From positions 310,001 through 374,000 of the forward strand of contig NZ_ML660166.1 in the NCBI RefSeq assembly GCF_007004725.1: a DNA stretch of 64,000 bases, given 5' to 3'. The notes beneath the pieces were generated by a model. That model saw only the letters and a program-made list of their open reading frames with translations. It did not search any database and was not told the DNA's origin. The first letter of the stretch is position 1, and every line of letters begins with the position of its first letter. Made by a program: the position numbers and the translations under genes. Below, one piece after another: positions 18,394 through 30,286 of the stretch. The DNA is from Aliikangiella coralliicola. GTDB lineage: Bacteria > Pseudomonadota > Gammaproteobacteria > Enterobacterales > Kangiellaceae.

Positions 18394-19566
18394 TTAGTAA
18401 TACAAAGACAAGAATAAGCGAACAACATTGGCATTAAAGCTATAAAATGGCTCAGTACCAGGTTCCGCAGAAACTCGAATATCTCTAAAATTATCATAAT
18501 CAAACTGGATATGATCGACATATAGATTGAAACTGAACTTATCGAAATTTTCCCAACTCTTTAACGGTTGCTCGTAAGTCACTCCTACACCAATGCTGTT
18601 GGTGGTAAAGGCGCTCATTTCTTTATCCCTGGCACGAAAGTTCTGTGCGTCGATTCTTGGGAAAAGGTCACTATAAAAATCTGCTTGATCTTGTTTGTAA
18701 CTTCGCAATTTAAATTCCAAAGTCCATTCGTCACCTATCGGGTGGGTATAACCGACTTCAGCAGTATTAGCTCCTATTCCCCAGGTATCTGAAAATTGTT
18801 TCAACTCTAACTTCAATGCTGCCCGATAAGGTAAATAGTACAATCCACGGATCGCAAACGAATCACTGGTACGAGTGTCTGGATATAATTCATCCTGAAA
18901 ACTATAACCGGTAGCAACAGACGGGTCGAGGTAACGAACTGATCGATAAGGGTTATTTAGCAATCCCTCATCAGTAATTGTTTCCCAGGATACGTTAATA
19001 AGGCTATTTTTTGTCAATATTTGCGATACACCCAAGCGAAAGTGCCGCCTGTCAGTGTCACGAGAAAACTCAGGTTCATCACGTTTTCCGACGGTATCCC
19101 AACCTTGTGAGTAACCGATATTGAGCGTTGTCAAATCGCCGAAAAAATCTTGAGAAACATTAAAGTGGGCAGATCTGGCAGAGAAATCATTTTCATCACT
19201 TTCCGTGTAATTGAAACTCATGACAGTTTTATCGCGTAAGTAATCAATACCAACGCTCTTTTCTTTTCGCTCTTCGGTATAAGCACTCGCGGTGGTTACC
19301 ACGTCAATAGAGGCGCTGCTGACATTATCAACATAGTAGTTGGCCGAAATCGACACTGTATCCTTAATCGACTTTCTAACTAAAAATGAAGGTCCCTGAA
19401 TATCGACACCGCCACCTTCAAAATAGTGGTATAACGCATCAGCCCTGTCTACAGGAAGAACTGCCGCCAATAAACTATTGCAACTTAAATTTAAGCCGAA
19501 AAATAAGCTAACAAGAACAACTTTATAAGATAGACAATGCTTGTTAATTTTTTTTATCACTCTCAT
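18394..19566 (-). CDS. DUF3570 outer-membrane beta-barrel protein
   Basis: 390 residues with a signal peptide (hydrophobic 16-35). The mature part begins DRADALYHYFEGGGVDIQGPSFLVRKSI, which is the DUF3570 start, followed by alternating beta strands (SISANYYVDNVSSASIDVVTTASAYTE) and a C-terminal aromatic residue (LFLSLYY) typical of outer-membrane barrels. I recall DUF3570 genes occurring next to DUF4266 and thioredoxin-like genes, as they do here. The role is unknown; a pore or assembly site for a redox peptide is possible. Last gene of the six-gene minus-strand arm. Confidence 0.85.
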   Translation of the reverse strand: MRVIKKINKHCLSYKVVLVSLFFGLNLSCNSLLAAVLPVDRADALYHYFEGGGVDIQGPSFLVRKSIKDTVSISANYYVDNVSSASIDVVTTASAYTEERKEKSVGIDYLRDKTVMSFNYTESDENDFSARSAHFNVSQDFFGDLTTLNIGYSQGWDTVGKRDEPEFSRDTDRRHFRLGVSQILTKNSLINVSWETITDEGLLNNPYRSVRYLDPSVATGYSFQDELYPDTRTSDSFAIRGLYYLPYRAALKLELKQFSDTWGIGANTAEVGYTHPIGDEWTLEFKLRSYKQDQADFYSDLFPRIDAQNFRARDKEMSAFTTNSIGVGVTYEQPLKSWENFDKFSFNLYVDHIQFDYDNFRDIRVSAEPGTEPFYSFNANVVRLFLSLYY

Positions 19567-19595
19567 TGAATTAATTTCACTTGATGATTTTCGGG

Positions 19596-19871
19596 CTAGT
19601 TACAGCCACAGCCTCCACCGGCACTTCCTTCTGCTCCACGAGCCGCTTCACGGGCCTGGTGGACATGATGCAGATAATTATCTGAAACGGGATTTCGTCC
19701 GAAAGCCATGATTGGATCGGCCAGATTTTGCCTTTCGTAAGGCTTAACCCAAGGTTCTAAAGAAGAGCAACCTGAAATTACCAAGGTGGTAACTAACAGG
19801 ATTGCACGAAACCAATCGGCTTTCAATTTGACTACAGTGTTTTCATATTTCACAACAAATCTCTCATGCAC
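19596..19871 (-). CDS. DUF4266 lipoprotein with Cys-rich C-terminal tail
   Basis: 91 residues. Lipobox LVISGC places the lipidated Cys near residue 35, so the mature part is only ~57 residues. It contains VKPYERQNLADPIMAF, the DUF4266 core, and ends GSAGGGCGCN. The C-G-C terminus suggests metal or haem binding or a thiol modification, but this is inference. A GGGA site precedes the ATG. It lies 29 bases before the DUF3570 gene and 33 bases after the TlpA-like gene, so the three probably act together. Confidence 0.85.
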   Translation of the reverse strand: MHERFVVKYENTVVKLKADWFRAILLVTTLVISGCSSLEPWVKPYERQNLADPIMAFGRNPVSDNYLHHVHQAREAARGAEGSAGGGCGCN

Positions 19872-19904
19872 AATCCCATTTCAATCTTTGTCTTATGACA
19901 GAAT

Positions 19905-20408
19905 TTACTCTCTCATTAACTCTTTGATTTTATTTTTATATTTTTCTTCGTCGCCGGTTTTATATCCAGCATGAACGTACCTGACATTGCCATCTCGATC
20001 AATAATCGCAGTGCTAGGCATCGCAGAAACACTATACTGTTCGCTTACTTTGCTCTTTGGGTCAAGTAATATCGGGAACTTGACTGGCGTTCCTCTTAAA
20101 TAATCAATCGCTTTTTCCGACTTTAAATCGACGTTAACGCCCAGCACGGCAAACCCGAGCGGTTCGTATTTTTTATGGATTTCATCGAGAATGGGCATTT
20201 CCTGACGGCAAGGCCCACACCAGGAAGCCCAAAAGTTCAACAATACCACCTGGCCACGAAAGTCAGACAAACGCAAATTTTCGCCGGTTAAACTTTTCAA
20301 TGTGAAATCTGGTGCCGCGACTTTGTCCGCTGCTGACAAGGTTGAGCAGGCGACTAACATCAAACCCGTTAAAAATGCCTTAAAACCAAATACTGTTCGC
20401 TTTTTCAT
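19905..20408 (-). CDS. TlpA-like periplasmic thioredoxin
   Basis: 167 residues from ATG 20408, preferred to the upstream ATG 20438 because GGAAAG lies 5-7 bases before it and it begins a normal signal peptide (MKKRTVFGFKAFLTGLMLVAC). The thioredoxin fold carries NFWASWCGPCRQEMP, with the redox pair CxxC, and the cis-Pro region SAMPSTAIID. It probably reduces or delivers to thiols of the neighbouring Cys-containing exported proteins (DUF4266 and the c-type cytochromes). Second-to-last functional group of the minus arm. Confidence 0.93.
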   Translation of the reverse strand: MKKRTVFGFKAFLTGLMLVACSTLSAADKVAAPDFTLKSLTGENLRLSDFRGQVVLLNFWASWCGPCRQEMPILDEIHKKYEPLGFAVLGVNVDLKSEKAIDYLRGTPVKFPILLDPKSKVSEQYSVSAMPSTAIIDRDGNVRYVHAGYKTGDEEKYKNKIKELMRE

Positions 20409-20459
20409 GTTACTTTCCAATTCCTCTAATAGAGCCAATCATCAAATTATAGCCGGGTG

Positions 20460-21140
20460 CTAGAAAAATATTGTGAAACCAGTTGAGATTTCTAAATCAT
20501 TTGCCGTCTTTTTGCTTCCCAACAACTCAATGTCATAAAAGTGATCTTTGAGCATGACGTGCATTGAGAACCAATCATTAAACAAGACCTGATAGCCGCC
20601 ACCAAGCATAACCGTCGAACGAGTATCTCCTGCAAAATCAGTACTTCCCAATCCTGTCAAAATATAAAATGAGCTGGTAAACGCCAAGTCTCTTCCCATA
20701 AAACCTTCGCCTGGCAAAATATTAAATCCAAGGGCAACGCTATAATGGGAATATTCTCTTTGTTCATCGGTAAGCAGTACCACGTCACCGCTTAACCGCT
20801 CAAAACTGGTTTCGCCGGCCTTAGACTCGCCATAATTCAACGATAGAAAAAAGTCTTCGGTGACATGATAGGCCGCCATAAAACTGGTAATTTCATTAGA
20901 GCCGAAATCCTCAATACTAATGACACCGTACTGCAAACCAATTTCCCAATTTTCAGTATCTATCGCATCACGATCAACTTCACGTCGCTCTACCTGCGGA
21001 TCGAACACTTTCACATTCGAAATACTTTGCTCTTCCTCCGGCTCAGAATCAGCCTCTTGGGCCAACACCAGAGAAGAGTTAATTGTAAGGGCTCCGACTA
21101 ATAGAGCCCCTAGAAAAATACGCTGAATCCTAATTTCCAT
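20460..21140 (-). CDS. Outer-membrane beta-barrel protein
   Basis: 226 residues with a signal peptide (cut near VLAQEAD). A negatively charged linker contains VKVFDPQVERREVDRD, then an eight-strand-type barrel (WEIGLQYGVISIEDFGSNEITSFMAAYHV) ending in Phe-Phe. It resembles the outer-membrane beta-barrel family first seen in myxobacteria. Its first 31 bases overlap the end of the upstream SH3-barrel gene, and the two barrels look like diverged paralogues. Function unknown. Confidence 0.75.
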   Translation of the reverse strand: MEIRIQRIFLGALLVGALTINSSLVLAQEADSEPEEEQSISNVKVFDPQVERREVDRDAIDTENWEIGLQYGVISIEDFGSNEITSFMAAYHVTEDFFLSLNYGESKAGETSFERLSGDVVLLTDEQREYSHYSVALGFNILPGEGFMGRDLAFTSSFYILTGLGSTDFAGDTRSTVMLGGGYQVLFNDWFSMHVMLKDHFYDIELLGSKKTANDLEISTGFTIFF

Positions 21141-21889
21141 TCTTCTACTTCGTCGTTATCGTTTCTACTGGTTAAAATTGTATGCGAGTTGTACTCTGCG
21201 CGAATGAAAAACTGTCGAGAAACATATATCTTCGCGCCGATACCGGCATGAACCATTTCATCTTCTCTGTCTTCAGGCAACACCAATGTCGCATTCGGTT
21301 TTACTTTAATAATACCTGTGCCAAGCTTAACGTAGGGTGAAACTCGCCACTCAGGGAAAGGTTGGTGCAAAATATTTAAATTTAAAAATTGTATATCTGA
21401 TACATTACCAAGCGCTTGAGAATAAGCAATTTCTGTCGCGATATTTTCGGTCCAGTTCCAACCTGCATGCAAGGTCATCACTGTCGCTCCACCAAAATCA
21501 CCTGCTAATACCCCAGTTTCATATCTCCGTGCGATAAATCCTTCTTGATCTGGTTTATCAATTTCGTAATTTTCACCATCGTCAGCCAAAGTCTTTTCTA
21601 ATTCATCTTCGTGAACCCAGCCTAGCCTTCCTCTTGGAGACTTCACTTTGTACCATTCAGTTTTTTTCTTTATCAATAAGATTTTTTCGCCTTTCTCGAC
21701 GATATGAAAAACCGGATAGCCTCTGCCCGGCCCAGTATGAAACTCAACAAAAGGATCGACGATTTCGACAGACTGATATTCTTCGTCTTCACTTTCGGCA
21801 CCATCGTTACTTTTCGCAACGAGCGTGCCACAGCTAATCATCAGAAAAAATATCAAAACGAGTTTGATATCTGATTTAAGTTTATTCAA
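21110..21889 (-). CDS. SH3b-domain outer-membrane beta-barrel protein
   Basis: 259 residues with a signal peptide. Residues ~38-95 are a bacterial SH3 domain (VEIVDPFVEFHTGPGRGYPVFHIVEKGEKILLI...GWVHEDEL), which usually binds peptidoglycan or peptides. The rest is a beta-barrel similar to the next gene product, also ending in Phe-Phe. It could tie an outer-membrane barrel to the cell wall. It follows the HzsA-related gene after 44 bases and overlaps the next gene by 31 bases. Confidence 0.78.
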   Translation of the reverse strand: MNKLKSDIKLVLIFFLMISCGTLVAKSNDGAESEDEEYQSVEIVDPFVEFHTGPGRGYPVFHIVEKGEKILLIKKKTEWYKVKSPRGRLGWVHEDELEKTLADDGENYEIDKPDQEGFIARRYETGVLAGDFGGATVMTLHAGWNWTENIATEIAYSQALGNVSDIQFLNLNILHQPFPEWRVSPYVKLGTGIIKVKPNATLVLPEDREDEMVHAGIGAKIYVSRQFFIRAEYNSHTILTSRNDNDEVEEWKLGFSVFF

Positions 21890-21933
21890 TTTATTTTTGG
21901 TCCCTAAATACAGTTGCTCTATTGAATACCAAA

Positions 21934-24594
21934 TTACTGGGGTACGTCAAAGGGATTATTATAGTATTGACCACCAATATCCAGCCATTCCGCGATTAAT
22001 TTAAGTTCTGCCGGACTTAACCAGCCCTGATGAGAACCTCCAGCATCAAATAGTTGGAAGAAACGTGTATTTGTCACCGCAGAGTTAACATTGAGCGCAG
22101 CAGTAACCCCAACGGTATTCATCACGGGAATCGGGTCGCCATTTGCGTCCAGGATGAGATTTCCATCTTCGTCAACTTCAAAAATAGGATTGCCATTTGC
22201 ATCAGTCGCCGGTACTAACTGATCAATTAAAGCCCCATTCACCAGTTCCTGAGCATTATCGGCAAACATCAATTCACGATAGGAAGTAACATGATCGGGT
22301 TCATCAACCGAGGGAGTTCCCACAAGTTCCAGCTGCGCAATTGGTACCTGGATCTGGTCCATTGCGTCGGTTTGACTATGACAGCTGACACAAGTGTTAT
22401 CTTGAACTAAATTTCCCATGCCATCTAATACCTGACGTGGCAAATCCCAGATCGGTTGAATAGTATCAACATAATTAATTGTAATTCGACAACGTCCGTT
22501 CCAACTCGTAACACAGCCTATTGTTGTTGGCGCAGGCGTAGTCAGATCTGCATAAGAATAGGTAAATGAAACATCTGGCGTTCTTACGGCCGGGTCAGTC
22601 CAGACATCATCAAAATTGATATTAACGGATAAATCCTGAAAACCATTTATACGGTTGTAAACCTGCGCCATAGTCTCCCCTTCATCGGCAAACAGGGTAG
22701 CAACGGTATTTGGAAATGGAGAACCTGTTGTAGGCGCGCCGGCGTTAGCAGAAGCAGCCTGAGCCTCAAGTCGACCGTGCGGTAACACACCGACATCAGT
22801 GTGGCAGCCATTACATTGTTTAACTTCTCCCGCTTTCACACTCATCCAGTTTTGATGCCTGCCACCGATTCGGCGGCCGTTAACATCTAAAACACTGATC
22901 GCGAAAGCGATATCTGCAGGTACTTTAAACATAGTGGAACCATCAGGTTCTACCGGCGCATATCCAATAATATCTTTCATCAACTGCGCCTGACTTCGAC
23001 CGAAGGCCGTGTTATCGAGGTCGACTAAATCTTCATCAGGCATCGAAACCGCTTTTACGATTCGAATAAACCGAGCAGGTCTGTCCGCAGCGTCAGCCTG
23101 GGCTGGATCGGCCATCGCAGAAATACCGAGTGGGCTGAGATCAAGACCGTCAAAATCGTAAACACTGCGAATGTGAACCACCCCAACATTTTCAGCAACC
23201 AGATCCGTATCAGCAGTGAGTGCTGTATCAACGAATACTGCAGGTAGTTCTCTCGGCCCCATCGCAACCACTTCATTGATCACCTGCCCTTCTACTGCGG
23301 TGACAATCGGCAACTGAGTTCCATCGGCAGGATTATAAATCCACACGCCGTAAAGCGGTTGCGCTTCGACAACACCGCCTTGGGCTATGGCTTCATCTGT
23401 GCAGGGAACAATAATAGGATTATTATCAGCGTCTACTGAATCGAGTCGGCAAGGAGTCCAACTCACTAACAGTCTCTGGCTACCATCGTATAACGGAAAT
23501 ACGGTCGAGAATCTTCCGCCACTAGAAGGCTCATCATCTGTGCGTACTTCAAACGGCGTTGCGCTCACCTGACCAGGGCCGGCTGCTCCTGCTGCCTGAG
23601 CTGTCGTCTGGTTAATATCAATAAAGTTTTCCCAGTCAATATAGGCTAGCTCTCCACCTAGTCGGCGGCTGGTATTGGGTTTCAAATGCACTAATATGCG
23701 GCCATCTTCCACCTGTCTTGCCGACGAGAATTCAACAGCACCACCGTCGGTACCAGTGTTATGGCTTTCCATTCCGTATAAAATTTCTAAACCGGTCCCA
23801 TCTGGGTTGACTTGATATAAATTAATCACGTCTCGACCATAATTATCCCAGCGACTAAATACAATTTTTCCGTTGGTCAAAACAGTTGGATCGGTATCAT
23901 GGCTTTGATTAAAAGTAATCTGTTTTATTTCACTACCATCATCATTCATGACATGAAGCGATAACGCCTCAACATTTCGATCTTCATCTAGCGCGGCAAA
24001 TTGAGGCTTGCCCTCATCCAATAAAACTGCCTTCGCCAATCTTTGTCTGGTGGATGCGAAAACAATTTTCCCATCTGGTAAAAAATGAGGTGCGACATCA
24101 TCACCTGCCTCGGCAGTAATATCTGATGCAATAATTCTTCTTAGTACCTGGGTCGTACGATCATATTCCCAAATATTCCATTTGGGTTGTTCATCTTCAT
24201 CAGCACCTTCAATTTCTGGAGCTCTCATCGCGAATACAAGCTTATTCCCATCGTGAGAAACGTCGACATCTCTAACATCGTATAAAGCGCCTTCTTCAAA
24301 TGCCTGAGCGGTGATATTAGTTTCTGCCGCACTTGGAGTGGCCCGGTCTCTTATAAATAATGCTGCGCCAGCATTAAATGCGATTGGTTCTCTTAAGTTT
24401 TCTTCTACAGGCGTTTCGTTATTGTTGTCATCGACTTCCACTGGCAGAGGACGTTTAATATAGGCAATTGGAAAATCAATGACGACTGGGTCAGGTTCTT
24501 GTCCTGTTTGTTGCACACTAGAGCCGCCGCCAGTACAACCGGCAAGCATTGCCATTGTTAAAATCGCCGATATACTAAAATAAGATTTTTTCAT
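21934..24594 (-). CDS. HzsA-related di-heme lipoprotein with beta-propeller
   Basis: 886 residues from ATG 24594 (GAGA site upstream), preferred to ATG 24621. Lipobox LAGC makes it a lipoprotein. Residues ~100-320 have TolB/PD40-like propeller repeats (DVDVSHDGNKLVFAMR, PHFLPDGKIVFAST, DTDPTVLTNGKIVFSRWD). The centre and C-terminus resemble hydrazine synthase alpha: VPADIAFAISVLDVNGRRI leads into heme motif CNGCH (594-598), and a second, CVSCH, is at 735-739. It lacks the wider anammox context, so it is not hydrazine synthase. It probably oxidises or carries electrons for an unknown substrate. First gene of the minus arm, divergent from the heme/DUF1501 genes. Confidence 0.78.
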   Translation of the reverse strand: MKKSYFSISAILTMAMLAGCTGGGSSVQQTGQEPDPVVIDFPIAYIKRPLPVEVDDNNNETPVEENLREPIAFNAGAALFIRDRATPSAAETNITAQAFEEGALYDVRDVDVSHDGNKLVFAMRAPEIEGADEDEQPKWNIWEYDRTTQVLRRIIASDITAEAGDDVAPHFLPDGKIVFASTRQRLAKAVLLDEGKPQFAALDEDRNVEALSLHVMNDDGSEIKQITFNQSHDTDPTVLTNGKIVFSRWDNYGRDVINLYQVNPDGTGLEILYGMESHNTGTDGGAVEFSSARQVEDGRILVHLKPNTSRRLGGELAYIDWENFIDINQTTAQAAGAAGPGQVSATPFEVRTDDEPSSGGRFSTVFPLYDGSQRLLVSWTPCRLDSVDADNNPIIVPCTDEAIAQGGVVEAQPLYGVWIYNPADGTQLPIVTAVEGQVINEVVAMGPRELPAVFVDTALTADTDLVAENVGVVHIRSVYDFDGLDLSPLGISAMADPAQADAADRPARFIRIVKAVSMPDEDLVDLDNTAFGRSQAQLMKDIIGYAPVEPDGSTMFKVPADIAFAISVLDVNGRRIGGRHQNWMSVKAGEVKQCNGCHTDVGVLPHGRLEAQAASANAGAPTTGSPFPNTVATLFADEGETMAQVYNRINGFQDLSVNINFDDVWTDPAVRTPDVSFTYSYADLTTPAPTTIGCVTSWNGRCRITINYVDTIQPIWDLPRQVLDGMGNLVQDNTCVSCHSQTDAMDQIQVPIAQLELVGTPSVDEPDHVTSYRELMFADNAQELVNGALIDQLVPATDANGNPIFEVDEDGNLILDANGDPIPVMNTVGVTAALNVNSAVTNTRFFQLFDAGGSHQGWLSPAELKLIAEWLDIGGQYYNNPFDVPQ

Positions 24595-24915
24595 TAATGA
24601 TCTCGTCGCTAAACACAGCATATTTGTTGATTAGACCTGGTTGATTAGACTAGCAAAAATTCATACGGCTCTCATTGTTATCAGCAAAGATTTTCGCACC
24701 GACAACAGCAAACAGTATGAAAGGGCTATTTCTCCCATTGAACGGTATTATCCACTATTTGCGATTTGATTTCTGTGCGAAGATTCACGGAAAAATGAAG
24801 TTGAATTGGCTAAACTATCTCGTAATGATAAAGGGGTCAATTAAGTAAAATAACGACAATATTGCCTCTTTTCCGTTCCAAACACCTACCGGTGTTCCAT
24901 AGAAAGGCACTCGTT
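24595..24915. promoter_or_regulatory. Divergent promoter region of the redox cluster
   Basis: About 320 bases separate the HzsA-related gene (minus) from the mono-heme gene (plus). It is the only sizeable gap inside the nine-gene cluster, so it should hold both promoters and any operator. I could not identify a convincing operator or -35/-10 pair by eye. Confidence 0.5.
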
Positions 24916-26139
24916 ATGACTATAGGTAACTTTACCCCCCAAAGAAGTAAGCTCACCTGTTTTATCGTCGGCATGATAACGGTTTTTTCGCTTTCTGCTA
25001 GTGCAGGCCCTCGCGAACAAGCAAAACGAATCCACGACAGGATCGCAGGCATACCACCAACAGAAGCTGTTTTAACTAGTATGCAAGCAGATATTCAATC
25101 AGGAGATGCTGTCGCGGCAGCTTACAAGGCAATGGATAATGATGCCTTTTATAGTGTTACACTCAAAAACTGGGTAACTCCCTGGACCAATGAGCCTGAA
25201 ACAGTCTTTGCACCACTAAATGATTATACCGCGACTGTTATTGGCATGATTAGAGATGATGTAGATATTAGACAAATGTTGTTTGGTGACATTATCTACA
25301 CTGGTCAATCTGCAGGTCTTCCTGCTTATTCAGCCACGAATAATGACCACTATGAACAAATGGAGTCACAAGCCCTGCCGCTTGGCACTGTGTTACAACA
25401 GGCTACGCAATCAAGCGTTACCGGTATTGAAGCGCAAGCCACCGCCGGCGTATTAACAACGCGAGCGGCGGCGAAAGCATTTTTAATTGATGGAACCAAT
25501 CGCGCAATATTTCGATTTACCTTAATCAACCATTTTTGTGGTGATCTAGAACCTCTGAAAGATATCGAACGTGCAGCAGACCGAATCAGGCAAGATGTAT
25601 CACGTAGCCCCGGTGGCGACAGCAGAATCTTTATGAACTCTTGCTACGGCTGCCATTCAGGAATGGATCCGATGATTCAATCCTTTGCTTATTATGATTA
25701 TGTTTATGACGTCGACTCAGACCCGGATGGCGAAAGCGGCCGATTAGTCTACAACGGCGAAGGCCAACTCGATGCGGAAACAGGTACTCGCGTTGTTTCC
25801 AAGTACCACAACAATAAATTTAACTTCCCTCCCGGATATGTCACTGAAGATGACAGTTGGGTTAACTATTGGCGTAAAGGTCCAAATCAGCTGATTGGTT
25901 GGGATCCAGCATTGCCCGGTAGCGGAAATGGTGCAAAATCAATGGGACAAGAACTGGCCCACAGCGAAAAGTTTGCCAGATGTCAGGTTGAAAAAGTATT
26001 CGAAAATGTTTGCTTAAGACCACCGGGAAATAGCGCCGATAGAACTCAGGTCGATACCATGATTGCTTCACTAAAAGCGAATGGCTATCAATTAAAGCGA
26101 ACTTTCGCAGAATCAGCCGTTTATTGTATGGGAGAATAA
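24916..26139 (+). CDS. Exported mono-heme cytochrome-like protein
   Basis: 407 residues from ATG 24916 (AAAGG 8 bases upstream; the frame is open from TTG 24862). The signal peptide covers about 13-31 (CFIVGMITVFSLSASAG). One heme motif, CYGCH, is at 243-247, in the context FMNSCYGCHSGMDPMIQSF. This resembles the CxxCH..MDP..F pattern of planctomycete DUF1588-type cytochromes. The region AHSEKFARCQVEKVFENVCLRPP near the C-terminus also resembles them. It is adjacent to the next gene (ATG directly after the stop), so they are co-translated. Confidence 0.75.
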   Translation: MTIGNFTPQRSKLTCFIVGMITVFSLSASAGPREQAKRIHDRIAGIPPTEAVLTSMQADIQSGDAVAAAYKAMDNDAFYSVTLKNWVTPWTNEPETVFAPLNDYTATVIGMIRDDVDIRQMLFGDIIYTGQSAGLPAYSATNNDHYEQMESQALPLGTVLQQATQSSVTGIEAQATAGVLTTRAAAKAFLIDGTNRAIFRFTLINHFCGDLEPLKDIERAADRIRQDVSRSPGGDSRIFMNSCYGCHSGMDPMIQSFAYYDYVYDVDSDPDGESGRLVYNGEGQLDAETGTRVVSKYHNNKFNFPPGYVTEDDSWVNYWRKGPNQLIGWDPALPGSGNGAKSMGQELAHSEKFARCQVEKVFENVCLRPPGNSADRTQVDTMIASLKANGYQLKRTFAESAVYCMGE

Positions 26140-28674
26140 ATGATGAATTTAAAGCAAACCTTATTCTCTCAAAAACGACAGCCGACTCAACTGATGTCCG
26201 CACTGTCAATTGTTGAAAAATTTAAGAGTAGCCAGAAAATGCTCAGACTTTCGTTTGGCGCAGCACTCATTTCAGTTTTAGCGGCATGTTCAGGCGGCGG
26301 CGCAGATGTTGAAGAGAACCCAGTAGTCGCACCGCCTCCCAGCTCAAACTATAGCGGACCACCACCTCAAACAGACGATGTACAAGCTTTTAAACTCAAT
26401 GTTTGGGATAACTTGTCTCCTTCAAATCGCTGTGGCGAATGTCATGGAAACGGCCAGGCCCCGGAATTTGTTAATTTATCTGATATTAATATCGCCTACG
26501 CTGAAGCGAATAAAATAGTTGATTTAGAACGACCATCAGAGTCCCGAATGGTATCCAAAGTGGCCGGCGGGCATAACTGTTGGTTAACTAGTGATGCGGC
26601 CTGTGCCGATACCATTACCAGCTATATCACAGCCTGGGCTGGCGACGCTGCAGGCGGCGGAACCACCATTGAACTGGTAGCTCCGACTATTCGAGATCCA
26701 GGTGATAGCCGTTCGTTTCCAGAATCTTCAGCGCTTTTTGGAACCACAGTTTATCCATTGTTGAGCCAGTACTGCGCAGGTTGTCACAACGAAAACTCTG
26801 CTAATCCTATTTCACCGTTTTTCGCAAACGATGATATCGACTCTGCTTACGCCGCGGCGAAAGCTCGAATCAATTTGGATACACCTGAAAACTCACGTTT
26901 TGTTATTCGACTGCGTAATGAATTCCATAACTGCTGGAGTGACTGCGGCGCTAACTCAACTGAGATGGAAGACGCAATTCGTTCATTTGCAAATCAAATC
27001 CCGCTCACTCAAGTTGATCCTAACTTGTTGGCCAGTAAATCTTTATTCTTGACCGATGGGATTGTTGCTAGCGGCGGTGGACGTCACGACACCAATGTTA
27101 TTGCCCTCTGGAATTTCAAAACGGGTCAAGGTGATACGGCTTTTGACACCAGTGGTATAGAACCAGCGATCAATCTCACCCTAAGTGGTAGCTACAACTG
27201 GGTCGGTGGCTGGGGTATCCAGATTATCGACGGTAAAGCGCAAGGCTCGACCAGCAATAGTAAAAAACTACATGATTTGATTACAGCAACCGGTGAATAC
27301 TCAATTGAAGCCTGGGTTGCCCCTGGTAATGTCACCCAAGAAGGTCCAGCAGGTATCGTTAGTTACTCGGCAGGAACGACAGCGAGAAACTTTACCCTTG
27401 GTCAAACGCTGTATAACTATGAATTCCTTAATCGCTCAAGCGAAACAGACGCAAATGGGGAAGCTTCATTAGCAACACCAGATGCTGACGAAATTGTACA
27501 AACGGCATTACAGCATGTTGTTGCCACTTTCTCTCCTACTGAAGGTAGAAAACTTTTTGTTAACGGAGAATTGGTCGCTCAGGAGCAAGTAGAAACCGGT
27601 GGCACGCTCAATGACTGGGATGACACTTTCGCGGTGGTCATGGGTAATGAAGTATCAAGTGACCGACTGTGGCAAGGAACTCTACGAATGGTTGCTATCC
27701 ATAATAGAACACTGACGCCAGAACAGATTGTGCAAAATTTTGATGTAGGTGTCGGTGAGAAGTTCTTCATGTTGTTCAGTATCTCTCATCTGATCAATTT
27801 GGAAGAGTCCTATGTTGTGTATGAAGTTAGCCAATGGGATAGCTATGGATACTTGTTCGACAAACCATTCTTTATCAACCTTAACGACCAGAATATTCCT
27901 GACAACATTGATATTGAAAAAATTCGTGTTGCGGTTAACGGTAAAGAAGTTAAAAACGGCCAAGCTTATAAGAATCTGAATGTTAATCTGAATACGACGG
28001 ATTACAGCACAGAAACCGGACAAACTATGTCTCGACTGGGCACGGTAATAGCATTGGAAAAAGGTCCTACAGCCGACGAGTTCTTCCTGACTTTCGAAAA
28101 AATCGGAACAGCGGAAAACGCGTTTGTTGAACCTCCGGCTCCAACGCCTGCAACACCGACAGATTTACCAGAAAGACCTGAAATTGGCATAAGAGACTTC
28201 TTTGAAATTCACGCTTCAATGTCAAAAGCGACGGGGATCAGTATGGCTCAAACAGATGTTGCACAAACCTATGAGCGTGTTAAGCAACAACTTCCAACGC
28301 TGACTGATATTGACTTCTTTACTTCAGCGCAACAGATGGGGGTTACTCAGCTAGCAATCGAATACTGTAATGCACTGGTTGAAGACAATACCGCAAGAGC
28401 AGCTTATTTTAGCGGCTTTAATTTTAGCTCGGCAGCCAATGTAGCGTTTGACTCTCAGGCAAAACGCGATCTGATTTACGACCCATTGATTACCAATATT
28501 ATGGGCAGTAATCTGTCGACACAGCCTGCAGTTGTCGATGTTAAAACAGAGTTAGGTAGCCTGACTGATACTTTAACTTCCTGTGGAGCAGGTTGTTCAG
28601 CGGACCGAACGGAAATCGTAGTAAAAGCAGTATGCGCAACCGCCTTAGGCAGCGCAGCAATGTTAGTTCAATAA
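26140..28674 (+). CDS. Di-heme LamG-domain lipoprotein
   Basis: 844 residues. Lipobox VLAAC puts the lipid Cys at 50; a shorter start at Met34 would give a normal lipoprotein signal, but the GGAG site supports 26140. Two tandem cytochrome-like units follow: CGECH 98-102 with HNCW 145-148, and CAGCH 212-216 with HNCW 263-266. Residues ~317-530 are a LamG/concanavalin-type fold (VIALWNFKTGQGDTAFDTSG, YSIEAWVAP, LFVNGELVA). The C-terminal 300 residues are not recognised and contain a Pro-Thr linker. It may bind a carbohydrate or surface ligand while passing electrons. Middle gene of the plus arm. Confidence 0.78.
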   Translation: MMNLKQTLFSQKRQPTQLMSALSIVEKFKSSQKMLRLSFGAALISVLAACSGGGADVEENPVVAPPPSSNYSGPPPQTDDVQAFKLNVWDNLSPSNRCGECHGNGQAPEFVNLSDINIAYAEANKIVDLERPSESRMVSKVAGGHNCWLTSDAACADTITSYITAWAGDAAGGGTTIELVAPTIRDPGDSRSFPESSALFGTTVYPLLSQYCAGCHNENSANPISPFFANDDIDSAYAAAKARINLDTPENSRFVIRLRNEFHNCWSDCGANSTEMEDAIRSFANQIPLTQVDPNLLASKSLFLTDGIVASGGGRHDTNVIALWNFKTGQGDTAFDTSGIEPAINLTLSGSYNWVGGWGIQIIDGKAQGSTSNSKKLHDLITATGEYSIEAWVAPGNVTQEGPAGIVSYSAGTTARNFTLGQTLYNYEFLNRSSETDANGEASLATPDADEIVQTALQHVVATFSPTEGRKLFVNGELVAQEQVETGGTLNDWDDTFAVVMGNEVSSDRLWQGTLRMVAIHNRTLTPEQIVQNFDVGVGEKFFMLFSISHLINLEESYVVYEVSQWDSYGYLFDKPFFINLNDQNIPDNIDIEKIRVAVNGKEVKNGQAYKNLNVNLNTTDYSTETGQTMSRLGTVIALEKGPTADEFFLTFEKIGTAENAFVEPPAPTPATPTDLPERPEIGIRDFFEIHASMSKATGISMAQTDVAQTYERVKQQLPTLTDIDFFTSAQQMGVTQLAIEYCNALVEDNTARAAYFSGFNFSSAANVAFDSQAKRDLIYDPLITNIMGSNLSTQPAVVDVKTELGSLTDTLTSCGAGCSADRTEIVVKAVCATALGSAAMLVQ

Positions 28675-28687
28675 CGGGAGCATGAAC

Positions 28688-30286
28688 ATGAAGAAATTGA
28701 CTAAAGAGCAACTATTAAATGCGCCCTTATTGCACAATTCGCATAAACGACCAACCACTCGTAGAGACTTTATCTCTCAAGGTTTTATGGCTGGTACTGC
28801 GAGCGTAATGGGACCTTCAATTCTGGGTCTGTTCGCCAATCCGCAAAAGGCTCACGCGACCTTGTCTCCAGATATTGAAGCACTTAAAAGTGCCTGTGGA
28901 ATTGCGGTACAGGGCGCGGGTAAAATCCCTTTTATCTGTTTTGACCTGGCCGGCGGCGCGAATGTTGCCGGCTCAAATGTGCTGATTGGCGGTCGTGGCG
29001 GCCAGCTGGACTTTATATCTTCAGCGGGTTACAGCAGACAAGGATTACCGGGAGATATGATTCCTTCGGTGATGAATCCCCAAACTGGATTATCTGACTT
29101 TATTAATTCTGATTATGGTTTGTCATTTCATACCGATAGTGCTTTTTTACGTGGAATTCAGGACAAAACCACAGCAACAACTGCTGCAAATACAAACGGT
29201 GCTGTAATACCGGCACGTTCTGACAATGACACTGGAAACAACCCACACAATCCAATGTATGGGATCAACAGAGCAGGTGCGGATGGCTCGCTACTCACTT
29301 TAATTGGATCGAGAAACAGTGATTCCGGCGGTAACTCCATGTCACCAAATAACATGATTGATCTGTCTGTTCGACCGACCAAAGTTGATCGACCGAGCGA
29401 CGTAACAGGCCTGGTTGATGTTGGCGACTTAGTCGGACTACTTAGCCAGGATGATGCTGTTTCGGTCATGGAGTCGATATACCGAATTTCAGACAATAAA
29501 ATGGACCAGGTAAATACCAATGTCAGTTCCGACGCGGTAATCAAAGAAATGGTTCGCTGCGGTTATGTTAAAAGTGCTGACCTGGCTGACAGATTTGGTG
29601 ACCCATCGACTCTCGACCCAGCGTTAGACCCTGATATTGTCGGCCCGACGGGTATCTTTACACAAGCTGAATTTGACTCAGATAGCGAATTTAGAAAAAC
29701 TGCCTCTGTCATGAAAATGGTTATTAACGGCTTTTCAGGTGCAGGAACAATCACCATGGGTGGTTATGATTATCACGGTCAAGGCCGTTCAACCGGCGAA
29801 GTGCGAGATTTCCGCGCTGGTCGTTGTATGGGAGCTTGCCTGGAGTACGCAGCGAAGGTCGGCGTTCCATTGATGATGTACGTTTTTAGTGATGGCTCAG
29901 TCAGCGCCAACGGCGTTGTTGATGACTCTGTAGAAGGTCGTGGCAAGTTTATGTGGCAGAGTGATAACTCCTCTACTGCTGGCTCATTCTTTATGGTTTA
30001 TAACCCTGACGGACGTGCAAACTTGATTGGTGCGACACCAGAAGAACAAGCCATACATCAGCAAATTGGTTACATGCGCTCTGACGGTTCGACTGAGACG
30101 GCATCTTCCCCGGCGGCTAACAACCCTAACTTGCTGGTAGAAACAATTATTCTCAACTACATGGCACTACATGGTGAGCAGAATAATTTCGCTAACCTGT
30201 TCCCTAATCATGGTCTTGGTAATTCCGCATTAATTGACAGCATGACGGCTTTCGAGCCGATTGTTAACGGAACCATTGGAAGTTAA
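28688..30286 (+). CDS. Tat-exported DUF1501-like protein
   Basis: 532 residues from ATG 28688, chosen because GGGAG is 7 bases upstream; ATG 28682 is only 2-3 bases from it. The N-terminus has a twin-arginine signal (TTRRDFISQGFMAGTASVMG). The mature part resembles DUF1501 proteins of the alkaline-phosphatase-like superfamily (FICFDLAGGANVAGSNVLIGG, NPHNPMYGINRAGADGSL, TMGGYDYHGQGRSTGEVRDFRAGRC). In planctomycetes DUF1501 genes pair with heme-containing PSCyt genes, and here it follows two heme proteins. Folded export by Tat suggests a metal cofactor. Last gene of the plus arm. Confidence 0.75.
   Translation: MKKLTKEQLLNAPLLHNSHKRPTTRRDFISQGFMAGTASVMGPSILGLFANPQKAHATLSPDIEALKSACGIAVQGAGKIPFICFDLAGGANVAGSNVLIGGRGGQLDFISSAGYSRQGLPGDMIPSVMNPQTGLSDFINSDYGLSFHTDSAFLRGIQDKTTATTAANTNGAVIPARSDNDTGNNPHNPMYGINRAGADGSLLTLIGSRNSDSGGNSMSPNNMIDLSVRPTKVDRPSDVTGLVDVGDLVGLLSQDDAVSVMESIYRISDNKMDQVNTNVSSDAVIKEMVRCGYVKSADLADRFGDPSTLDPALDPDIVGPTGIFTQAEFDSDSEFRKTASVMKMVINGFSGAGTITMGGYDYHGQGRSTGEVRDFRAGRCMGACLEYAAKVGVPLMMYVFSDGSVSANGVVDDSVEGRGKFMWQSDNSSTAGSFFMVYNPDGRANLIGATPEEQAIHQQIGYMRSDGSTETASSPAANNPNLLVETIILNYMALHGEQNNFANLFPNHGLGNSALIDSMTAFEPIVNGTIGS

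Follow-up and report, generated by a model that had tools for sequence, protein, structure and literature searches.

Here we describe a divergent cluster of nine genes (A to I) at positions 18394-30286 of the window, by which we mean the whole 64,000-nucleotide stretch of Aliikangiella coralliicola DNA that was analysed. By sequence and linkage, these nine genes for exported proteins are inherited together, and a second operon encoding a TolQ/ExbD/AgmX motor core (j to y), usually with the flavin transferase ApbE (z), adjoins them in many lineages. We consider it fairly probable that the nine genes specify one half, the exported and outer-membrane one, of a proton-driven machine of the Glt type that spans the envelope, takes about 19 genes in all and would carry a redox payload at the cell surface.

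A conserved nine-gene cluster of exported proteins

A check of the open reading frames recovered all nine genes in the order and orientation given by a preliminary description of the window:

18394..19566, minus strand: A, DUF3570 protein, predicted 16-strand outer-membrane barrel (Pfam PF12094, 8.2e-38; AlphaFold model; motifs SSAS and TTAS)
19596..19871, minus strand: B, DUF4266 small lipoprotein with C-terminal CGCN (PF14086, 6.5e-23)
19905..20438, minus strand: C, TlpA/ResA-like thioredoxin with WCGPC (PF00578, AhpC-TSA, 6.3e-31)
20460..21140, minus strand: D, OMP_myx_plus outer-membrane barrel (TIGR04565, 134.9 bits, cut-off 60)
21110..21889, minus strand: E, SH3 domain and outer-membrane barrel (PF08239, PF13505)
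21934..24621, minus strand: F, di-heme lipoprotein with PD40 beta-propeller-type repeat and HzsA-type middle domain (PF18582, 3.7e-15; PF07676)
24622..24861, no strand: divergent intergenic gap separating the two arms (from gene coordinates)
24862..26139, plus strand: G, exported mono-heme protein of PSD2/DUF1585 type (PSD2 in 16/16 family members)
26140..28674, plus strand: H, di-heme lipoprotein with a LamG domain (Laminin_G_3, PF13385, 1.7e-20; alignment)
28682..30286, plus strand: I, twin-arginine exported protein of 534 amino acids, of no recognised family (alignment; twin-arginine (Tat) signal)

The start of thioredoxin C is probably the ATG near 20408 instead of the listed TTG. A scan of the divergent gap found neither a sigma-70 consensus promoter nor a terminator.

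The preliminary description had proposed a search of genomes for co-occurrence of the nine families, naming restriction to this strain and independent distribution of the two arms as results that would speak against one system. In a first sample of 119 relatives, I was present in 28, and regions were fetched from 26 of these (the genome of the window itself and G006 were left out). All nine genes stood in the same order in 24 of the 26 regions; the remaining two (L046 and L053) end at contig edges, and F is fragmented in L039 and I in L058. Searched for at E ≤0.001, F was matched in 31 of the 119 genomes, namely the same 28, G055 with fragments, and G085 and G104 with marginal matches. A second sample, with one genome per species, yielded at least 553 relatives of I, and the best 80 loci were taken; their record titles name Gammaproteobacteria groups or plain Proteobacteria. 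Together, the 26 and the 80 loci, minus 11 duplicates, gave 95 distinct loci, a set that favours close relatives because the loci are best matches.

All nine genes were matched in 72 of these 95 loci. Among loci long enough to tell, the plus-arm genes were in place without exception (G 89/89, H 89/89), and the minus arm was nearly as constant (F 82/83, E 81/82, D 79/80, C 74/79, B 24/24, A 22/22); it was missing only from L122, a contig of a metagenome-assembled genome (MAG), among 83 testable loci. Thioredoxin C was absent from its usual place in L109, L113, L120, L122 and L134, and in L099, L112, L114 and L125 it stands behind I in the plus arm. The cluster is thus found in many relatives and not in this strain alone, and since the arrangement recurs in them it is more than chance. 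In wider samples, I was found in 7 of 349 genomes at phylum level, all of the same class, and in 35 of 274 at class level. We viewed the surroundings in 13 class-sample genomes, picked partly as odd, and F stood beside G-H-I in nine of them (the order differs in G574, and the stretch in G507 ends at a contig edge).

All nine products have signal-like N-termini as judged by eye, and the twin-arginine motif of I recurs in 90 of 95 loci, which bears out the export signals claimed earlier. Lipobox-type cysteines are seen in the alignment of B and in the consensus of F and H. The five CxxCH motifs reported over three proteins (two in F, one in G, two in H) were likewise confirmed, and they are kept across full-length orthologues, with two in 81/81 for F, one in 89/89 for G and two in 84/85 for H; this 2+1+2 heme pattern is nearly invariant.

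Two observations concern the distribution of the cluster. Within the same family, the listed genomes of genus g5, 2.3-2.9 Mb in size, are without I and F, and in seven a strong match to DUF3570 persists. A MAG titled Klebsiella pneumoniae (L124) carries the cluster and ApbE as in Alteromonadales-type loci, and its title is probably wrong.

A motor-core operon adjoins the cluster in many lineages

When the relatives were searched for ApbE, several genomes turned out to have an ApbE gene next to the cluster, and the neighbours of these genes make up the operon j-k-l-t-u-v-w-x-y, usually with z:

j, u: small proteins
k, l, t: TPR or TPR-like proteins (t with TPR repeats; k and l by TPR-type matches)
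v: MotA/TolQ/ExbB-like protein (PF01618 on L149)
w, x: ExbD/TolR-like proteins (PF02472 twice on L149)
y: AgmX/GltG-like TonB protein (NF033768, 59.6 and 70.2 bits, cut-off 40; weak TonB C-terminal match)
z: flavin transferase ApbE

The order v-w-x, a TolQ-like gene followed by two ExbD/TolR-like genes, is kept in relatives. The operon is joined to the cluster at different ends. It follows I in L086, L103, L107, L108, L110, L127, L128, L138 and L139, among others, including records of Sedimenticola, Steroidobacteraceae and Microbulbifer; j-k-l follow A in L042, L043, L045 and L049; the core lies directly against A in L059; and in L204, L205 and L206 a run F-E-D-C-B-A-ApbE-j-k-l continues onward, opposite to G-H-I. 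All nine genes and j to y share one stretch in L103, L107, L110, L128 and L139, where the edge of the locus truncates some of the outermost genes. The nine genes and the core are also together in L108, L127 and L138, where a t or u match is lacking, and in L204, L205 and L206, where y was placed by genome coordinates if the locus ends first. Of the 95 loci as fetched, 38 include core genes, 23 include at least three from the set j, k, l, v, w, x and y, and 24 include ApbE; these counts are lower bounds because most fetched loci end near A.

In the A. coralliicola genome, the core operon and its ApbE lie on another contig, G000:C11 (L149, L169), and there is no ApbE within the window cluster. 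Identity to the C11 ApbE is 42 to 56% for the 24 linked ApbE proteins and about 28% for those of L060, L061 and L166. In this genome the core operon is preceded by one more thioredoxin-like gene (L169 7153-7530), as it is in L170, L171 and L178.

The two halves also go together at the level of whole genomes. Counting any AgmX-like match as y, paralogues included, we found y in 28/28 I-positive against 7/91 I-negative genomes among the 119 relatives (Fisher test, 5e-21), and in 32/35 against 30/239 in the class sample (Fisher test, 3e-21), both values being uncorrected for relatedness. In 12 of those 35, I and y are no more than 21 kb apart on one contig. Judged by coordinates among the matches listed, ApbE lies next to y or near I in at least 25 of the 28 I-positive relatives; G054 has an unlinked ApbE of the same type, and the two remaining without one, G006 and G018, are both 82% complete. 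In a tree of TolQ-like proteins, the C11 motor and the linked motor of L059 belong to one group of 14 rows (support 91/93), apart from the two paralogues of the C11 motor in its own genome.

The exported proteins and their relatives

Pfam and NCBIfam models support the labels first given to most of the products, that is, DUF3570 for A, DUF4266 for B, TlpA-like for C, barrel for D, SH3-barrel for E, HzsA-related for F and LamG for H. F matches the HZS_alpha middle domain with 56.7 bits (cut-off 26.6), and a profile search of the PDB aligned it with the HzsA structure 5c2v at 6.2e-15. In the G family, PSD2 was matched in 16/16 members (best 3.1e-7), the window's G scoring just below the gathering threshold, and PSCyt3 weakly in 5/16. 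H is rich in cysteines beyond its heme motifs (13 Cys). The PDB profile search with E returned SH3 domains and the OprF barrel; with G and with A it gave no convincing relative. Small signatures are steady across the orthologues: a C-terminal phenylalanine in D (82/82), W-CxxC in C (80/81 read) and a CGC end in B (78/79 read). The Glt barrels of Myxococcus are presumably OMP_myx_plus members, as D is.

The label DUF1501-like, given to I in the preliminary description, did not hold. Across 15 members, Pfam returned the Tat signal and chance-level matches only (best E 0.039), with no match to PF07394 (DUF1501) up to E 1, and a scan found no DUF1501 match anywhere in the same genome at E 0.001. 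Aligned by hhalign with 3 of 12 fetched DUF1501 proteins and with one DUF1552 protein, I matched in the Tat segment only, and its PDB profile search gave chance-level hits only; the DUF1501 label is thus unsupported. I is a well-kept protein (mean column identity 75%). Its AlphaFold model is poor, with a predicted local distance difference test score (pLDDT) of 49.9, and Foldseek returned mostly names of the alkaline phosphatase superfamily, none better than E 0.2; for both reasons these names were not used.

The model of barrel A is better (pLDDT 83.4) and has 16 long strands, counted by hand, and no plug domain. Foldseek matched it to porins, FadL and other outer-membrane barrels, with template-modelling scores (TM-scores) below 0.5 on the query. 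Both flavinylation-type sites of A lie in one stretch that closes the third strand in the model, and by strand alternation this stretch would face the outside. Elsewhere, DUF3570 proteins have been reported as ApbE substrates, modified at [S/T]GA[S/T] motifs (PMC8238504). The search pattern that we used for the sites, which itself demanded both serines, fitted 73 of 76 family members; of the three outside it, two are truncated ahead of the motif, and in L107 SSAS stands at both sites. Among the 73, the first site is canonical in 27, the second in 5 and either in 32, leaving 41 without a canonical motif at either site, the window's orthologues included. In a 16-row alignment, which is independent of the pattern, both serines are invariant. 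The idea that A is a flavin-free DUF3570 protein was dropped because an ApbE accompanies the system and a canonical site is retained in 32 of the 73 members, and we infer that A is flavinylated by ApbE.

Related chassis and modules in the same and neighbouring genomes

A second Glt-type core with three barrels lies elsewhere in the A. coralliicola genome (G000:C12, L179 1778-18828). It includes a 1681-amino-acid PKD/PA14 protein whose start resembles F and which has no heme motif; the hemes therefore look like payload and not chassis. The window cluster sits at an Ffh-YpjD-CorC site, also seen in the window's genus, and at this site G061 carries a Glt-type core, D/E-type barrels, a thioredoxin and a divergent DUF3570 gene (L182 1800-14712).

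Three further sets were seen in the A. coralliicola genome. One is a third TolQ/ExbD/ExbD/AgmX set (G000:C8, L180 12431-15034). Another is a stand-alone thioredoxin-DUF4266-DUF3570-ApbE module with intact TGAS (G000:C10, L060 6253-9296). The last comprises a 1653-amino-acid FnIII/PSD4/PSCyt3 cytochrome, a DUF1552 protein, a thioredoxin, a DUF3570 protein with two SGAS motifs and ApbE (G000:C6, L061 7287-16569), and is thus a second case in which the flavinylation module accompanies PSCyt-type proteins.

Discussion

In the machine that we propose, v, w and x would form the proton-driven motor, whose force would reach the barrels D, E and A across the periplasm by way of y and the TPR proteins. 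Reducing equivalents may be handed outward by thioredoxin C and the CxC lipoprotein B, and ApbE (z) would flavinylate A on its conserved serines, though the motif glycine is often lost. The redox payload would consist of F, G, H and I at the outer face, and the motor may position, load or drive it. The preliminary description had suggested an outer-membrane-spanning electron-transfer or oxidation machine. Its first half has gained from the finding that a TolQ/ExbD/AgmX operon, usually with ApbE, belongs to the set; electron transfer or oxidation is still what we infer.

Several observations weigh against this machine. Its two halves are unlinked in this genome and in most of the Kangiellaceae fetched. 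The canonical [S/T]GA[S/T] acceptor is absent at both sites of the window's A. In the class sample, 30 of 62 y-positive genomes are without I, and I occurs without a y match in 3 of 35 (G445, G507 and the single-contig G475); some of the y matches counted are at paralogue level, with 30 to 37% identity (e.g. G018). The TolQ tree puts some linked motors (Microbulbifer, G058) nearer the paralogues, and therefore the pairing may have more than one origin. TPR-type matches point only to a possible likeness of k, l and t to GltC, GltD and GltE. Finally, the arms were together in 82 of the 83 testable best-match loci and less so at a distance: in G485 and G647, F, A and y form one group and G-H-I lie far away from it; G539 carries G-H-I with no F match; and G475 (L198) has G-H-I and a partial F with no DUF3570 or AgmX-like match, in what looks like a decaying copy of the cluster.

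Among other explanations, the parts could form a secretion or assembly apparatus, in which motor, barrels and TPR proteins deliver G, H and I to the outer membrane or through it, while thioredoxin, DUF4266 protein and ApbE mature the cargo with disulfides, hemes and flavin. The G-H-I arm can stand apart as cargo would (G485, G647), H has many cysteines besides its heme motifs, and the core of L179 adjoins a different payload, the giant PKD/PA14 protein. Against this, no secretion-system model reached its curated cut-off among the matches listed for the scanned proteins, and genes of the A, B and C types with ApbE also stand alone in the same genome (L060). We judge this explanation rather unlikely.

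Energised uptake has a low probability. Here, a TonB-like motor and the barrels would import a metal or carbohydrate that is first reduced, oxidised or bound (through LamG) at the surface, consistent with the weak TonB C-terminal match of y and with the VIT1 iron transporter carried by 25 DUF3570 clusters in the published survey (PMC8238504). None of the nine proteins matched a TonB-dependent receptor model, however, and predicted barrel A, with its 16 long strands, has no plug.

We likewise see little probability in a porin-cytochrome-type conduit for extracellular electron transfer, the main suggestion of the preliminary description, even though five hemes, an outer-membrane barrel, lipoproteins and a thiol carrier are all present. 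DUF3570 modules have indeed been proposed as DsbD-fed electron-transfer systems (PMC8238504). Yet there is no multiheme cytochrome among the nine proteins, none of which has more than two CxxCH motifs. We also know of no role for the motor operon in porin-cytochrome conduits.

That redox cluster and motor are separate systems sharing species by chance is very improbable, since their direct contiguity in several families, re-joined in different orders, stands against the lack of linkage in most Kangiellaceae fetched, the occurrence of AgmX-like genes alone and the absence of both systems from the listed small genomes of genus g5.

A surface redox payload on a Glt-type chassis also admits a bolder, more tentative extension. 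In many lineages the ancestral Glt-type core may be the motor of a redox machine that couples proton-driven force to heme, flavin and thiol chemistry at the surface, and gliding in myxobacteria would be a later re-use of the chassis. If the proposed machine is real, motors of this class would gain a new use, that of acting on a redox complex at the surface. The association also offers a setting in which to read DUF3570, DUF4266, TIGR04565 and PSD2-type proteins as well as HzsA relatives. Among the papers listed by searches of open-licence PubMed Central, none joins these parts, or ties a Glt core to a redox payload, in its title or abstract.

Comparison with known systems

Several known systems share parts with the one described here. 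The closest precedent offered by the preliminary description was that of the planctomycete DUF1501/PSCyt pairs, and it stands in part. As in the PSCyt/PSD cytochromes described by He et al. 2017 (PMC5615132), G has a PSD2 (DUF1585)-type end and H has LamG beside its hemes; unlike in those, the domains are split over separate proteins, and I has no DUF1501 or DUF1552 match. F aligns with the alpha subunit of hydrazine synthase (PDB 5c2v) along a propeller region, over the middle domain that holds the first CxxCH and along a C-terminal segment, but scores 39.4 bits against an equivalog cut-off of 800, and no model of another hydrazine synthase subunit was among the matches listed for the nine proteins.

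The ApbE-DUF3570-thioredoxin-DUF4266 flavinylation module, as presented by Meheust et al. 2021 (PMC8238504), has counterparts in the adjacent A (DUF3570), B (DUF4266) and C (thioredoxin-like), and in z (ApbE). In our case, by contrast, ApbE lies outside the window, a motor and cytochromes are linked with the module, and the thioredoxin model of the published module, PF13899, is not among the matches of C.

The second operon resembles the Glt/Agl core, known also from the gliding and Nfs spore machines of Myxococcus, in having one TolQ-like and two ExbD/TolR-like proteins, an AgmX/PglI-domain protein, TPR-type proteins and an extra gene. A match to the GltE model among the core-operon proteins reached 5.5e-6, below cut-off, and y scored 34.9 and 49.1 bits against 650 for the full-length GltG equivalog. 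Because of this GltG score, and because k, l and t were compared only indirectly, we say that the core works like the Glt core and is probably related to it. Luciano et al. 2011 (PMC3169522) described a "core complex" of the gliding motor in non-gliding Gammaproteobacteria and left its function open; the word "cytochrome" does not occur in the main text of that article. The same kind of core is tied here, in many families and through both co-occurrence and gene order, to a constant group of exported proteins with hemes, thiols or a place in the flavin module, a link that makes the open question on the Glt-type core testable in cultured isolates. What sets it apart from the Glt/Agl core is this linkage, which takes in five hemes, thiol proteins, the flavin module and a protein exported by the Tat route, and the whole would be a Glt-type machine in which a redox payload takes the place of the gliding or spore-coat payload.

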